In this document: piece by piece, positions 49,333-56,543 of the stretch
Position numbering within the stretch: the first letter of the stretch is position 1
How the letters are laid out: each line of letters begins with the position of its first letter
From: Modestobacter sp. VKM Ac-2977
Lineage (GTDB): Bacteria > Actinomycetota > Actinomycetes > Mycobacteriales > Geodermatophilaceae
Length of the DNA: 64,000 nt
Reading direction: 5' to 3'
Assembly: GCF_026968045.1 (NCBI RefSeq)
Contig: NZ_JAPVBQ010000001.1
Coordinates: forward strand, 695,238 to 759,237
Position numbers and translations under genes: made by a program
The notes under the pieces: model-generated
Databases searched by the model: none
What the model was told of the DNA's origin: nothing
The model's input: only the letters and a program-made list of their open reading frames with translations

Positions 49333-49965
49333 TCAGCTGCGGTGGCGGACCCGCACCACCTCGTCGGCGTGGTGATGGCCGTTCTCGCCGGCCGGCCGCG
49401 GCTGGGTGCCGGCCAGGACGACGTCCCACTCCTGCAGGTCCAGGTCGGCGAGGACGTCGGCGGCCGTGGCGAAGCGGTCCGCGCCCCACATCGCGGCGCG
49501 CTCCTCGTCGTATCCGTGACCGATCCACAGGAGCGTGCCGCCCGGGGCGACGGCCGCAGCCAGCCGGGGCACCAGCACCCGGCGCACCGCGGCCTCCGGG
49601 TGCAGGAAGTGGCCGGTGACCAGGTCGAACGCCGCGGCGGCGGGCTGCCAGGTGGCGACGTCGCCCTGCACCCAGGTCGTCCGGTCGCCGAGCCCGGCGG
49701 CGGACGCCTGGGCGGCGCCGCGGTCGAGGGCGGTCTGCGACCAGTCCAGGCCGGTCACCTGCCAGCCGCGGGAGGCCAGCCACAGGGTGTCGCCGCCCTC
49801 GCCGCAGCCGACGTCCAGGGCCCGCCCCGGGGACAGGTCGGCCGCCTGGGCGGCGAGCGTGGGGTTGACCCGGCCGCTCCAGAGCGCCGCCGCGGCGGCG
49901 TAGCGATCCTCCCAGGCGGCGTGGTCGTGGAGGTCGTTCGCCGGCTGCTGCTGGTGGTCGTGCAC
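49333..49965 (-). CDS. Class I SAM-dependent methyltransferase
   Basis: The 210-residue protein has motif I RALDVGCGEGGDTLWLASRGW, then VTGLDWSQTALDRG (post-I acidic residue) and FDLVTGHFLHP. It resembles tellurite-resistance TehB-like or thiol methyltransferases. GTG 49965 has GGAGGAA upstream. It lies 9 bp after the thioredoxin-reductase-like gene, so the two form an operon. The His/Gln-rich N-terminus (HDHQQQPANDLHDHA) could bind metal. The substrate is unknown. Confidence 0.88.
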   Translation of the reverse strand: MHDHQQQPANDLHDHAAWEDRYAAAAALWSGRVNPTLAAQAADLSPGRALDVGCGEGGDTLWLASRGWQVTGLDWSQTALDRGAAQASAAGLGDRTTWVQGDVATWQPAAAAFDLVTGHFLHPEAAVRRVLVPRLAAAVAPGGTLLWIGHGYDEERAAMWGADRFATAADVLADLDLQEWDVVLAGTQPRPAGENGHHHADEVVRVRHRS

Positions 49966-49974
49966 CGTTCCTCC

Positions 49975-50988
49975 TCAGATCCCGTGCCGGCGGTCGCCGA
50001 GCACCTGGTCGCACAGCTCCCGCTCGACGTCGGGGGAGAAGACCCGGCGTCCGGCCACGGCCCGGCGGGTGTCCTCCATGATCAGGTCGGCGTTGACCGC
50101 GGCCCCGGCGGTGAGCCCGGCCGCGGCCGAGCTGATCACCTGGGCCTTGATGTCGGTGACGTTCCCGGCCGCCCACACCCCGGGGACGGCGGTCGCGCCG
50201 GTCCCGTCCACCGGCACCCCGCTGCCCATCACCAGCTCGCCCATCCGGTGCTCGACCGCCTCGAGCCCCAGCGACTCCAGGACGCCGGCCCGTGCGGTGA
50301 ACCGCGGGGCCACCACCACCACGTCGCGGCCGAACACCGTGCCGTCGTCGAGCCGGACGCCGGCCAGCTTGCCGTCGGCGGACTCCAGGCCGGCGACCTC
50401 GCCGACGACCACGCTGATGCCCCGTGCGGCCAGCTGTTCCCACTCCTCCTCGGTGGGCTGCGGGCCGGTGTGCAGGAAGAGGGTGACGTCGGCGCTCCAC
50501 TGCCGCCACATCAGCGCCTGGTGCACGCCGGCGGCACTGGTGGCCAGCACGCCGATCGCCTGGTCACGCACCTCCCAGCCGTGGCAGTACGGGCAGTGCA
50601 GGACGGCGCTGCCCCAGAGCTCGCGCACCCCCGGGACGTCGGGCAGCTCGTCGACCAGCCCGGTGGTCACCAGCAGTCGCCGGCTGCGCACCGACCGCCC
50701 GTCGGCCAGCCGCACCTCGAAGCCGCCGTCGACCGGGGCGGCGGAGGTGACCTCGCCGTCGGTGAACTCCCCGCCGTAGCCGGCCACCTCGCCGCGGCCG
50801 ATCGCCAGCAGCTCGCGCGGCGGCGTGCCCTCGCGGCCCAGGTAGTTGTGTGCGTGTGCGGCGGGGGCGTTGCGGGGAGCCCCGCCGTCCACCACCAGCA
50901 CCGATCGGCGGGCGCGGCTGAGCGCGAGCGCACCGCTCAGGCCGGCGGCGCCACCGCCGACCACCACCACGTCGTACTCCGTCTCCAC
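49975..50988 (-). CDS. Thioredoxin-reductase-like FAD oxidoreductase
   Basis: The 337-residue flavoprotein has the FAD motif VVVVGGGAAGLSGALALSRA, the redox pair CPYCHGWEV and the C-terminal GVWAAGNVTDIKAQVISSAAAG FAD segment. CPYCHG (rather than CATC) is typical of a TrxR-like subgroup found with methyltransferases. It would pass electrons to a thiol partner. GTG 50988 has GAGGAG upstream. A nest of inverted repeats at 51069-51094 lies in its promoter, suggesting tight control. Confidence 0.9.
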   Translation of the reverse strand: METEYDVVVVGGGAAGLSGALALSRARRSVLVVDGGAPRNAPAAHAHNYLGREGTPPRELLAIGRGEVAGYGGEFTDGEVTSAAPVDGGFEVRLADGRSVRSRRLLVTTGLVDELPDVPGVRELWGSAVLHCPYCHGWEVRDQAIGVLATSAAGVHQALMWRQWSADVTLFLHTGPQPTEEEWEQLAARGISVVVGEVAGLESADGKLAGVRLDDGTVFGRDVVVVAPRFTARAGVLESLGLEAVEHRMGELVMGSGVPVDGTGATAVPGVWAAGNVTDIKAQVISSAAAGLTAGAAVNADLIMEDTRRAVAGRRVFSPDVERELCDQVLGDRRHGI

Positions 50989-51099: not shown

Positions 51100-52110
51100 T
51101 CAGCGAGGTGTGCGGCACACCGGGACGTCGTCGACGTCGACCGACGCCACCTGGTTGGGGTGCGCCCGGCGCTCGGCCCGGGCCGCCCGCTCCTGCTCGG
51201 CCAGCTGCTCCGCCTCGGCGACCAGCGCCTCGGCCGCCTCCTGCGCACGCTCCCTGCGGTACTCGCGGAACGACCAGACCACCGCTGCCGCCCAGGTCAC
51301 GTAGACGACCGCGAGCACCGCGTACCGGACCGGGTCGCTGGCGCCGACCCAGTCGCTGCTGAGCAGGCTCGTCGCGTTGGTGGAGACGATCATGCCGCCG
51401 ACCCCGGCGCCCAGCAGGCGCGGCGGGACGAACCGGACCAGCCAGGCGGCCAGCGGTGCGGCGACCAGGCCACCGGCCAGCAGGCCGAGCACCCAGAAGG
51501 CGTTGATGCCCTGGCTGCCGAGGGCGAAGAGGAAGCCCAGGCTCGCGGCGAGGGAGACCAGGAACTCCGAGGTGTCGATCGAGCCGATCGTCTTGCGCGG
51601 CTCCATCCGGCCGCTGGCCAGGATGGCCGGGGTGCTGACCGGGCCCCAGCCGCCACCGCCGGTGGCGTCGATGAAGCCGGCGGTCAGGCCGAGGGGGGCG
51701 AGGAACCGGGTGCGCATCGGCTTGCCCAGCTGGCGCTTGTCGATGCCACGCAGGGTGAAGCGGGCCAGCAGGTAGAGGCCCAGGCCCAGCAGGATCAACG
51801 ACATCACCGGCCCGGCGACGGCGGTGGAGATGTTCGACAGCACGGTCGCCCCGGCGAAGGCACCGATCGCGCCCGGGACGCCGATCTTGGCGACGACCTT
51901 CCAGTCGACGTTGCCGAACTTCCAGTGCGACAGACCCGAGGCGAGGTTGGTGCCGATCTCGGCGAGGTGCACCGTGGCCGAGGCGGCGGCCGGGTTGGTG
52001 CCGATGGCGAGCAGCAGCGTCGTCGAGGTGACGCCGTAGCCCATGCCCAGGCTGCCGTCGACGAGCTGGGCGCCGAGGCCCGCGAGGGCGAGCAGGATCA
52101 GGGTCTTCAC
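51100..52110 (-). CDS. TauE/SafE (TSUP) family sulfite exporter-like protein
   Basis: The 336-residue membrane protein has about eight helices with the two TSUP repeats: QLVDGSLGMGYGVTSTTLLL and LTAGFIDATGGGGWGPVSTPAIL. These families export sulfite, sulfoacetate or thiosulfate, or import sulfur anions. A soluble Ala/Glu-rich helix follows the last membrane segment. The start is GTG 52110 with a poor ribosome-binding site, in line with control by an upstream leader. The leader peptide at 52202-52330 supports a role in sulfur metabolism. Confidence 0.9.
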   Translation of the reverse strand: MKTLILLALAGLGAQLVDGSLGMGYGVTSTTLLLAIGTNPAAASATVHLAEIGTNLASGLSHWKFGNVDWKVVAKIGVPGAIGAFAGATVLSNISTAVAGPVMSLILLGLGLYLLARFTLRGIDKRQLGKPMRTRFLAPLGLTAGFIDATGGGGWGPVSTPAILASGRMEPRKTIGSIDTSEFLVSLAASLGFLFALGSQGINAFWVLGLLAGGLVAAPLAAWLVRFVPPRLLGAGVGGMIVSTNATSLLSSDWVGASDPVRYAVLAVVYVTWAAAVVWSFREYRRERAQEAAEALVAEAEQLAEQERAARAERRAHPNQVASVDVDDVPVCRTPR

Positions 52111-52201
52111 GAGGGAGGTGCTCCGGGTTCCAGGGTGCGGGCGCGCCGGGAGAGGGCGCAGCGGACCGCGGTGGACGAGGGGCGCCGGACGGCGCGGGAG
52201 G

Positions 52202-52330
52202 TCAGCGGGCCGGACAGGCGGCGGTGCTGACCCGGAGCAGGTCGACGTGCAGGCGGCTCACCAGGAAGGCGCCGGGGAGGGCGGACGGGAGGCGGGTGGG
52301 GAGCCCACCGGTGCTCGCCGTCGTCGTCAC
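52202..52330 (-). CDS. Short leader peptide upstream of the TauE/SafE gene
   Basis: This 42-codon frame starts at GTG 52330 and ends at TGA 52202; an internal GTG (52261) gives the 19-residue form VSRLHVDLLRVSTAACPAR. The RLHVDLLRVSTAAC block is the hallmark of the actinobacterial putative leader peptides found before sulfur-metabolism genes. Such peptides carry Cys near the end and can act by attenuation when cysteine is scarce. The GTG at 52330 lies about 7 nt after a -10-like TAGGAA, so the mRNA is probably leaderless. It ends 91 bp before the exporter. It is too short to be found by normal gene calling. Confidence 0.7.
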   Translation of the reverse strand: MTTTASTGGLPTRLPSALPGAFLVSRLHVDLLRVSTAACPAR

Positions 52331-52337
52331 GCCGACA

Positions 52338-52355
52338 TTCCTACCATGTTGGTAG
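52338..52355 (-). promoter_or_regulatory. Promoter and operator of the TauE/SafE leader
   Basis: On the minus strand the -10-like TAGGAA (52338-52343) is overlapped by CTACCA-TGT-TGGTAG (52341-52355), a 6-bp perfect inverted repeat. A repressor bound here would block initiation. TTGCCC about 19 bp further upstream may be a -35. Confidence 0.45.
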
Positions 52356-52387
52356 AGATTGTGGGCAAGGGGACCGCGAGGGCCCCG

Positions 52388-53830
52388 TCACGTCCGCAGG
52401 ACGTCGTTGCGCACGGTCGCCCAGGAGACCGCGGCGCCCAGCACCATCACCCCCGCACAGAGGCCCACGGCCAGCGAGTACCCGGAGCTGAACGACGCGG
52501 CGTCGGTGTGGTCGTCGCCGGAGAGCCCGACCGCCACCGGCAGTGCCGCGATCGCGAGCAGGTTCGCCGCCCGGGCGACGGCGTTGTTCACCCCGCTGGC
52601 CACCCCGGCCAGGTGGTCGGGGGCGGCGCCGAGCACGGTCGCGGTCAGCGGGGCCACCACCAGCGACATGCCCAGCCCCAGGCCGAGCGAGCCGGGCAGC
52701 ACGTCGACCCAGTACGAGCTGCCGGGACCGACCCGGGTGAGCCACAGCAGGCCACCGGCGGCCACCAGCGGGCCGGCGGTCATCGGCAGCCGCGGCCCGA
52801 TCCGCTGGGCGAGCGCGCCGGCCCGGGCCGACAGCAGCGTGATCACCAGGATCGTGGGCAGCAGCGCGGCGCCGGCCGCGGTGGCGTCGTAGCCGAGCAC
52901 GGTCTGCAGCTGCAGGACGAGGAAGAACATGACCCCGCCCAGCGCCCCGTACACCGCCAGGGTGCTCAGGTTGGCGCCGGTGAACTGCCGGTCGGCGAAG
53001 ATCCCCAGCGGCAGCATCGGCTGGGCCGCCCGGCGCTCCCGGACGACGAACGCCGCTCCGGCGAGCGCGCCTACGGCGGCGGCGACCCACACCTCCGGGC
53101 TCCCGGGGTCGCTGCCCGCCGAGATCAACGCGTCGGTGACCCCGGCCAGGGCCAGCGCGCCGAGGACGGCGCCGAGCACGTCGAAGCGCCCGGTGCGCCC
53201 GGGGTCCCGGCTCTCCGGCAGGTGCCGGGCGGCCACCAGGACGACGACCACCGCGAACGGCACGTTGATCCCGAACACCCAGCGCCAGCCCACCGTGTCG
53301 ACCAGGGAGCCGGCCAGGAACGGGCCGACCAGCCCGGCCAGCCCACCCAGCGCCGACCACAGGCCGATCGCCCGCGGCCGGTCCTGGTGCCGGAAGGAGG
53401 CCTGGATGATCGCCAGGCTCCCGGGGGTCAGCAGCGCTCCGCCGACGCCCTGCAGCACCCGCGCGGTGACGAGCTGGCCGGTCGTCTGCGCCAGCCCGCA
53501 GGCCAGCGAGGCGACGGCGAACCAGACGACCCCGAGCACGAAGACCCGGCGGCGTCCGTACCGGTCGCCCAGGGAACCGCCGAGCAGGACGAGGGAGGCC
53601 AGCGCCAGCGTGTACCCGGTCACCGTCCACTGCAGGCCGGACAGGGACGAGCCGAGGTCCCGGCTGATCGAGGGGAGCGCGACGGTGACCGCGGTGGCGT
53701 CGAGCAGCGCCATGGCGGAGGCGAGCACGGTGGCCAGCAGCACCCAGCGGCCCGGGGCGGTGCCCAGCGCGACCGGCTGACCGGCGACCGGTGGTGGCGT
53801 CCCGGCCGCGGCGGGCGGGGTCGCGGTCAC
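52388..53830 (-). CDS. DHA2-type MFS drug exporter
   Basis: The 480-residue protein has 14 predicted helices. Marks are LDATAVTVALPSISRDLG (helix 1), GGSLGDRYGRRRVFVLG (motif A) and RVLQGVGGALLTPGSLAII. It should export hydrophobic compounds with protons. GTG 53830 starts the frame; the long upstream extension in the same frame is shadow of the copper genes. It is divergent from the copper operon with only 111 bp between, so the promoters overlap. It is diverged from the first exporter at 434 and has no adjacent regulator. Confidence 0.9.
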   Translation of the reverse strand: MTATPPAAAGTPPPVAGQPVALGTAPGRWVLLATVLASAMALLDATAVTVALPSISRDLGSSLSGLQWTVTGYTLALASLVLLGGSLGDRYGRRRVFVLGVVWFAVASLACGLAQTTGQLVTARVLQGVGGALLTPGSLAIIQASFRHQDRPRAIGLWSALGGLAGLVGPFLAGSLVDTVGWRWVFGINVPFAVVVVLVAARHLPESRDPGRTGRFDVLGAVLGALALAGVTDALISAGSDPGSPEVWVAAAVGALAGAAFVVRERRAAQPMLPLGIFADRQFTGANLSTLAVYGALGGVMFFLVLQLQTVLGYDATAAGAALLPTILVITLLSARAGALAQRIGPRLPMTAGPLVAAGGLLWLTRVGPGSSYWVDVLPGSLGLGLGMSLVVAPLTATVLGAAPDHLAGVASGVNNAVARAANLLAIAALPVAVGLSGDDHTDAASFSSGYSLAVGLCAGVMVLGAAVSWATVRNDVLRT

Positions 53831-55799: not shown

Positions 55800-56543
55800 T
55801 TGTCCCTGTCTCTGCTCCGTCCCGCGCGCCGTCCGGCCGTCGTCCTGCTGACCGCGCTGCTCGCCTCGACGGGGCTGCTCGTCGCCGGCACCGGGGTCGC
55901 GTCCGCGCACGTCACCGTCTCCTCCGGGGACGCCGCGCCGGGTGGCTACGGCAAGCTCACCTTCCGGGTGCCGAACGAGAGCGACACCGCCAGCACGGTC
56001 GGGCTGCGCGTCCAGGTGCCCACCGACACCCCGCTCACCTCGCTGCGGGCGCAGCCGGTACCCGGCTGGACCGTCTCGATGACCGAGGCGCAGCTCCCCG
56101 AGCCGGTCGAGGTGCACGGCGAGCCGGTCGAGCAGGCCGTCTCGGTCGTGGAGTTCCGGGCCGAGGAGGGGCAGGGCATCGCCCCGGGCCAGTTCGAGGA
56201 GTTCTCCCTCTCCGGCGGACCGTTCCCGGAGACCGACGAGCTGACCTTCAACGCGGTGCAGACCTACAGCGACGGCACCGAGGCGGCCTGGATCGAGCCC
56301 ACCGTCGACGGCCAGCCCGAGCCGCGGTACCCGTCGCCGGTGCTGTCGCTGGCGGCGGAGGGTGCCGACACCCCGACCGACACCCCGACCGACACCGCGG
56401 CGACGGCCGACCCGGCAGCGGACGCCGAGGGGAGCGACGGCACGGCGGTCACCGCGCTGGTGCTGGCGGTGCTCGGGCTGCTCGCCGGGCTGGGCGGTCT
56501 GTTCCTCGGTCTGTCCGCTCGCCGACGTACCGTGTCCTCGTGA
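55800..56543 (+). CDS. YcnI family copper-binding membrane protein
   Basis: The 247-residue protein (TTG start after GAGGAGAA) has a signal peptide cleaved before His37 in SAHVTVSSGDAAPGGYGKLTFRVPNES. An N-terminal His is the copper ligand of YcnI (DUF1775). A Thr/Asp/Pro-rich linker (ADTPTDTPTDTAATAD) and one C-terminal helix anchor it outside the cell. It sits between CopC-CopD and SCO1 and probably hands copper between them. Its stop overlaps the SCO1 start. Confidence 0.92.
   Translation: MSLSLLRPARRPAVVLLTALLASTGLLVAGTGVASAHVTVSSGDAAPGGYGKLTFRVPNESDTASTVGLRVQVPTDTPLTSLRAQPVPGWTVSMTEAQLPEPVEVHGEPVEQAVSVVEFRAEEGQGIAPGQFEEFSLSGGPFPETDELTFNAVQTYSDGTEAAWIEPTVDGQPEPRYPSPVLSLAAEGADTPTDTPTDTAATADPAADAEGSDGTAVTALVLAVLGLLAGLGGLFLGLSARRRTVSS

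Follow-up and report, generated by a model that had tools for sequence, protein, structure and literature searches.

Upstream of a TSUP (TauE/SafE) transporter gene of the soil bacterium Modestobacter sp. VKM Ac-2977 lies a gene for a 42-residue peptide which, together with the transporter gene, is likely to constitute an attenuator acting in cis through its leader peptide: translation of this peptide, from an mRNA that is probably leaderless, would set the expression of a sulfur-anion transporter, probably an uptake system, according to cysteine supply. The conserved cysteine codon of the leaders compared is nearly fixed as UGU, an observation that is new here; no report of such a fixation was found in the open-access literature searched. 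This makes the 'putative leader peptide' family testable with a single synonymous change, and the conservation of amino acids in these peptides raises the question of whether the sensing of cysteine depends on tRNA charging only or is aided by the nascent chain. Moreover, an actinobacterial transporter of the TauE/SafE type, whose family takes its name from sulfite export, is tied by this leader to those of sulfur assimilation genes, and it may serve uptake. The window, by which is meant the whole stretch of 64,000 nucleotides that was analysed, contains the following features of the locus:

51100..52110, minus strand: TSUP (TauE/SafE, PF01925) transporter, 336 aa (Pfam match)
52119..52128, minus strand: Shine-Dalgarno (SD) region of the transporter, ACCCGGAGCA, with GGAG at 52124-52121 (conservation)
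52182..52195, minus strand: hairpin GCGCC-GUCC-GGCGC, six nt past the peptide stop (similar hairpins with differing paired bases, seen by eye among the leaders listed)
52202..52330, minus strand: GTG-started gene of the 42-aa leader peptide, probable 5' terminus of its mRNA (NF042934 match and family conservation)
52214..52216, minus strand: conserved Cys codon TGT, the proposed sensor codon (93 + 89 leaders)
52229..52255, minus strand: codons of RLHVDLLRV, conserved as amino acids and varying as codons (93-leader comparison)
52230..52239, minus strand: UGCUCCGGGU within the peptide gene (LLRV codons), 10 bp perfectly complementary to the SD region
52337..52353, minus strand: 17-nt promoter/operator-like block ACCAACATGGTAGGAAT, of which the commonest family form is AYCGATCTGGTAGACAT (family alignment)
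52341..52355, no strand assigned: inverted repeat CTACCA-ACA-TGGTAG over the -10-like element (sequence)

The leader peptide gene and its sister leaders

The 42-codon frame proposed in the first-pass annotation is present at 52330-52202 on the minus strand, and its product, as read from the sequence and its open reading frames, ends in RLHVDLLRVSTAACPAR. The peptide matches the NCBIfam model NF042934, 'putative leader peptide' (cis_reg_atten), with 31.3 bits, above the curated cut-off of 27. Against NF042936, which describes the Ms4527A polycysteine type, it reaches 16.5 bits, below the cut-off of 45; it has a single Cys and no Cys run, and a polycysteine identity was discarded on these grounds. 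The sulfur-type identity that had been assigned to the peptide holds, given the NF042934 score, the occurrence of sister leaders before sulfur genes and the conservation in kin. Judged by its sequence, the peptide is a cis-acting leader new to a known but little-studied leader-peptide family of actinobacteria, and it is probably cysteine-responsive. It has the same motif as the NF042934 leaders, but differs from that family in its position before a TSUP transporter, in a longer N-terminal part, which is found in the window strain and its close kin, and in the presence of only one Cys in the Modestobacter leader. That the frame arose by chance in GC-rich DNA is extremely improbable: a longer frame on the plus strand does cross the leader region, but the match to a curated family, the retention of the peptide at 93/95 loci and a pN/pS far below 1 in the motif all speak against such an origin, which conservation rules out.

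A profile search of the Modestobacter genome yielded three more leaders, scoring 31.7, 26.8 and 23.2 bits against the NF042934 cut-off of 27; four further matches (E of at least 0.38) were set aside, one of which was inspected and is no leader. The first sister leader precedes the gene of a nitrite/sulfite reductase, followed by that of a phosphoadenylyl-sulfate reductase (cysH), the second precedes a MetN-like ATPase of an ABC transporter with a MetI-like permease, and the third a rhodanese-type sulfurtransferase; the Pfam domains tested in these products score above their cut-offs, and the equivalog or subfamily models for MetN, MetI and the sulfurtransferase below theirs. All three leaders stand in front of sulfur genes, in agreement with the earlier statement that such peptides do so, and it is because of its leader type that the transporter is here grouped with sulfur assimilation. 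At each of the three loci (L105, L106 and L107, at position ~5000 each) the conserved Cys is encoded by TGT.

Conservation and phylogenetic spread

The transporter has a match in 95/112 Geodermatophilaceae genomes. The upstream regions compared, among them that of the window's transporter gene, belong to 95 such genes of 94 genomes, a copy at a contig end (G061) being omitted, and the kin genera of Modestobacter are represented in the sample by Blastococcus, Geodermatophilus, Klenkia and Trujillonella. The leader motif was found upstream of the transporter in the form R.HVDL.R in 89/95 regions and in the HIDL form in 4, the other 2 having no peptide; conservation of the motif in relatives, on which the earlier reading depended, is thus seen in 93/95 genes. 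Since these leaders were sought by the pattern R.H[VI][DE]L.R, the constancy of these residues in part reflects the search, although only 2/95 regions failed the pattern. Both regions without a peptide keep the promoter block described below. In one of them (L062), the transporter's own GTG lies 7 nt past the hexamer, and the sequence looks like the product of a deletion that removed the leader from its own start codon to that of the transporter; the assembly concerned (G037) is 88% complete and an assembly fault is possible. The other (L084) is the second copy in its genome (G059) and has an AGGGAGG site.

A wider view is given by the best 80 of 365 relatives of the transporter, in which a leader lies within 400 nt upstream in 57 cases and is missing in 23. 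Among the same best 80 of 365, the peptide is absent in 22/24 named homologues from outside the Geodermatophilaceae, a finding that counts against the attenuator model; all 11 Actinoplanes/Paractinoplanes homologues are peptide-less, as are four from Rhodococcus/Rhodococcoides and three from Cellulomonas, and the Kineococcus and Quadrisphaera homologues carry the leader, TGT encoding the conserved Cys in each. A Blastococcus record (L174) also lacks the peptide. Within this set of the best 80 of 365 relatives, the pairing of leader and transporter appears to be mainly a Geodermatophilaceae trait. One record titled 'UNVERIFIED_ORG: Bacillus sp. AZ43' (L162, SPQJ01000001.1) contains a Geodermatophilaceae-like transporter with a leader, and its organism name looks wrong.

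Motif residues and the conserved cysteine codon

Five residues of the motif, R0, H2, D4, L5 and R7, are invariant in 93/93 transporter leaders and are encoded by varying codons; for R0 these are CGC in 40 leaders, CGG in 33, CGT in 10, CGA in 7, AGA in 2 and AGG in 1. The pN/pS in these 93 leaders is 0.24 over codons 0-8 versus 1.36 over codons 9-12, and in 89 class-wide leaders 0.46 over codons 2-8 versus 0.86 over codons 9-12, all four figures treating related sequences as independent. The class-wide set is composed of best-scoring matches and is not random; it includes 26 parsed loci, the three sister leaders and 60 leaders among the matches listed, the 26 having been obtained from 30 loci of which L118, L129, L132 and L135 were left out.

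Codon 13 encodes Cys in all 93 transporter leaders and is TGT in 90 of them, and TGT was also found at this codon in 88/89 of the further class-wide leaders (29/29 and 59/60). Overall, the conserved Cys codon is UGU in 178/182 leaders, against a background of 8-16% (16/213 Cys codons at the family loci and 69/420 at the class loci) that was drawn from frames chosen by codon-position GC and not from annotated genes. Elsewhere in this part of the 93 leaders, Cys is encoded 129 times and always by TGC (codon 9 in 69 cases, codon 16 in 51, codon 12 in 7 and codon 14 in 2), and in the class-wide leaders codon 6 is TGC in 54/56; polycysteine leaders also use TGT elsewhere, at codon 11 (10/39), codon 14 (11/15) and codon 15 (10/20). 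Unlike the amino-acid conservation, the UGU result is free of motif-search bias.

Base-pairing was considered as a reason for UGU and rejected, given that the third base is paired with P > 0.5 in 50/93 leaders, that its partners are scattered and that the neighbouring bases vary class-wide. Decoding is the likeliest reason: cysteine has a single tRNA, by which UGU is read by wobble, and would hence be read more slowly. Because there is only that one tRNA, the theory of isoacceptor charging would not explain the choice of UGU. The use of a sensitive synonymous codon has a precedent in attenuators, according to the passages cited (PMC1183508), and in a Rhodobacterales cysS leader it is UGC that predominates, as stated in the corresponding part of another report (PMC8632094).

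Promoter region and the leaderless start

The promoter elements on which the first-pass annotation had built are present: the -10-like TAGGAA is found at 52343-52338, 7 nt ahead of the GTG and inside the 17-nt block, and the 6-bp inverted repeat CTACCA-ACA-TGGTAG overlaps it at 52341-52355. Searched for as a pattern, the repeat (CTACCANNNTGGTAG) has a single site in the genome and was dismissed as a genome-wide operator for that reason; the block (MYCNNNNTGGTAGRMAT) likewise has a single match. In relatives, the full form of the repeat occurs in 6/95 regions and a TACC-N4..6-GGTA core in 8/95. When the 17-nt block is aligned with its GGT part as the anchor, 11/17 positions (C/T merged) are identical in at least 90/93 relatives, and the ACC/GGT dyad core is complete in 32/93 and incomplete in 61/93.

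With 5-10 nt allowed between hexamer and start codon, 87 of the 93 leaders could be parsed and six could not: 60 have a gap of 7 nt, 24 one of 8 nt and 3 one of 6 nt; a recount made without the gap limit placed the first in-frame start at 6-8 nt in 86/93 and at 1-2 nt in 7/93. A leaderless transcript fits these data because the gap between the -10-like hexamer and the start codon is 6-8 nt in most leaders, and the leaderless geometry that had been claimed for this promoter is supported both by the relatives and by the apparent fusion in L062. In the latter, the joining of the promoter to the transporter gene argues well, though indirectly, for transcription starting at the GTG. A scan of 52000-52450 for the sigma-70 consensus found no promoter; the reading of the hexamer as a -10 therefore rests on position and conservation, and the element would not be of the common type.

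Inspection by eye did not reveal the block at any of the three sister leaders. A close form of it, CCTATCGAAATGGTAGGCA, was found before 6/11 of the peptide-less Actinoplanes/Paractinoplanes transporter genes among the best 80 of 365 relatives and before 0/14 other loci scanned alongside; in its carriers (L180, L183, L184, L193, L195 and L196) it lies ~64-70 nt before the transporter start. The 17-nt block appears to accompany the transporter rather than the leader; it could be an unusual promoter or else be bound by a dedicated, transporter-specific DNA-binding regulator. The repressor that the first-pass annotation had put forward as a second layer was premature.

The spacer and the output step

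The spacer of 91 nt reported between the two genes was confirmed (52201-52111, followed by the transporter GTG at 52110). The poor ribosome-binding site ascribed to the transporter gene does not stand, as a GGAG lies 10 nt before the GTG and GGAG is found at 7-12 nt in 93/93 genes. The duplex of UGCUCCGGGU with ACCCGGAGCA has a calculated energy of -19.6 kcal/mol. With a ribosome placed on UGU, the modelled access to the SD rises from 0.00 to 0.16 in the window strain, and the mean across the family rises only from 0.12 to 0.18. A synonymous-recoding control gave p = 0.075 for the window strain, that is, 7.5% of recodings do as well, and in the family p < 0.05 in 5/93, which is about what chance would give, with group medians from 0.14 to 0.72; in addition, the true SD pairs are no better than those of swapped sequences. 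Given the recoding control, the swapped pairs and the small change in access, sealing of the SD by the peptide gene was rejected as a mechanism common to the family. For the Modestobacter strain itself, the model suggests that the SD is plausibly hidden by the 10-bp helix with the LLRV codons.

The first 40 nt of the spacer are on average more stable than shuffled sequences, with a mean z of -1.28 and values < -1.5 in 37/93. A terminator scan of 52000-52450 detected no intrinsic terminator, and an Rfam covariance-model search of 51900-52600 produced no match with an E of 1 or less.

Proposed mechanism and alternatives

In the proposed attenuator, transcription would start at the peptide GTG or next to it, as suggested by the conserved spacing and by the natural promoter-transporter fusion, and a ribosome would begin at the 5' end of the mRNA, read through RxHVDLxRV and arrive at UGU. 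When Cys-tRNA is scarce, the ribosome would stall at UGU, the downstream leader RNA would be barred from its default fold and the transporter would be expressed; when Cys-tRNA is ample, the ribosome would finish the peptide and leave, the default fold would form and expression would be low. In the Modestobacter strain, this default fold would hide the SD in the 10-bp helix with the LLRV codons. What the sequences show is the gene, its conservation, the geometry and the codon bias; we infer cysteine as the signal, the stalling, the direction of control and the preference for a translational over a Rho-dependent output. Such a mechanism resembles the trp and leu attenuators in having its regulatory codons in a short leader, but differs from them by the lack of an intrinsic terminator. 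For the leaderless polycysteine sORFs of mycobacteria (Ms4527A type), cysteine-dependent attenuation has been reported (Canestrari 2020, as quoted by PMC9031893 and PMC13236596), and a leaderless geometry is probably a common trait of these and the Modestobacter leader. In the polycysteine leaders compared here, the VDLxR core of the Modestobacter leader recurs and the corresponding Cys is likewise UGU, but the Modestobacter leader has no Cys run.

Control could instead be exerted at the promoter, by a candidate regulator that would bind the 17-nt block and leave only a minor effect to the peptide. The strong conservation of the block in 93 relatives and the close form found before 6/11 peptide-less Actinoplanes/Paractinoplanes genes (from the best 80 of 365) argue for this explanation, but it would leave both the conservation of the peptide and the codon bias unexplained; in addition, the block occurs once in the genome, was not seen at the sister leaders when these were inspected by eye and has an incomplete ACC/GGT dyad core in 61/93, so that we regard control at the promoter as unlikely. 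A different output step would result from Rho-dependent attenuation, in which the finished peptide would expose a C-rich spacer to Rho and a stalled ribosome would shield that spacer. The lack of an intrinsic terminator and the C-rich character of the spacers, as judged by eye, are consistent with it, but Rho sites are usually without hairpins and the spacer carries them, and the constant closeness of the transporter SD fits translational control equally well. A report of 2005 raised Rho as a possibility for the cys leader peptides of mycobacteria, together with a weak prediction of a site (PMC1262725). The role of Rho at this locus is proposed here tentatively, and as the final step of the attenuator a Rho-dependent output and a translational one are equally possible.

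The single Cys codon of the Modestobacter leader makes a purely tRNA-limited sensor a weak proposal, and a contribution of the nascent chain has also to be considered. TnaC is an arrest peptide that responds to tryptophan, and peptides of its type, with conserved residues ahead of the sensing site and an amino acid as the signal, offer an analogy. By this analogy, RxHVDLxR in the upper exit tunnel might make the ribosome responsive to Cys-tRNA or to free cysteine. Such an arrest would account for R0, H2, D4, L5 and R7 being fixed in 93/93 leaders while their codons, including CGN and AGR arginine codons, vary, and for the pN/pS of 0.24, since an attenuator limited by tRNA would need the Cys codon only; the presence of one Cys in the Modestobacter leader also agrees with it. 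However, the motif is a search criterion in the class-wide set, where its conservation is in part circular and the pN/pS is higher (0.46 over codons 2-8), and nascent-chain arrest is to our minds a rather doubtful explanation. The geometry it would call for, with RxHVDLxR 6-13 residues before UGU and UGU in the A site, is conjectural to a like degree, the placement in the tunnel being deduced from spacing alone. A speculative combination, possible but not one that we would expect, is a class-wide two-part sensor in which RxHVDLxR would pause or position the ribosome and a wobble-read UGU at a fixed distance would report Cys-tRNA, one Cys being then sufficient. If this were true, RxHVDLxR would be selected as amino acids and UGU as a codon, and genes of sulfur uptake would be under the control of the sensor. 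The preferred reading remains the attenuator set by cysteine supply.

Family and direction of the transporter

The gene behind the leader is, as had been claimed, a GTG-started member of the TauE/SafE family, with a PF01925 score of 136.3 bits against a cut-off of 32.6. DUF81 is the older name of this family. Membership in PF01925 gives no direction of transport, and the functions of TSUP proteins are not predictable from sequence according to a later comparison that also cites sulfite exporters within the family (PMC5840216). The term exporter used in the first-pass annotation is therefore doubtful and premature, as it derives from the family label only and a relative, CysZ of C. glutamicum, behaves as a sulfate importer in the account given in PMC1266029. 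According to the same passages, C. glutamicum without this DUF81 protein showed no growth on 2 mM sulfate or sulfite, growth of the mutant was restored on sulfate > 5 mM, and CysZ was put forward as a high-affinity transporter of sulfate, a proposal that biochemistry had yet to prove (PMC1266029). CysZ, which belongs to a cys operon, is likened to the Modestobacter transporter by the shared family name, and the growth evidence concerns CysZ only. The transporter may be an uptake system, as control by a cysteine-type leader would make better sense in that case.

The Modestobacter genome contains one SulP frame and six PF01925 matches, and a search of it for the sulfate-binding protein family TIGR00971 gave no match. 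Compared by sequence with solved structures, the transporter has three weak matches, the best with an E of 0.021 and limited to residues 194-242. Behind the transporter gene, at 49333-50988 on the minus strand, are encoded a pyridine-nucleotide-disulphide oxidoreductase and a methyltransferase, and at 55800-56543 on the plus strand lies the gene of a DUF1775 protein, beside a frame that is CopC/CopD-like by eye.
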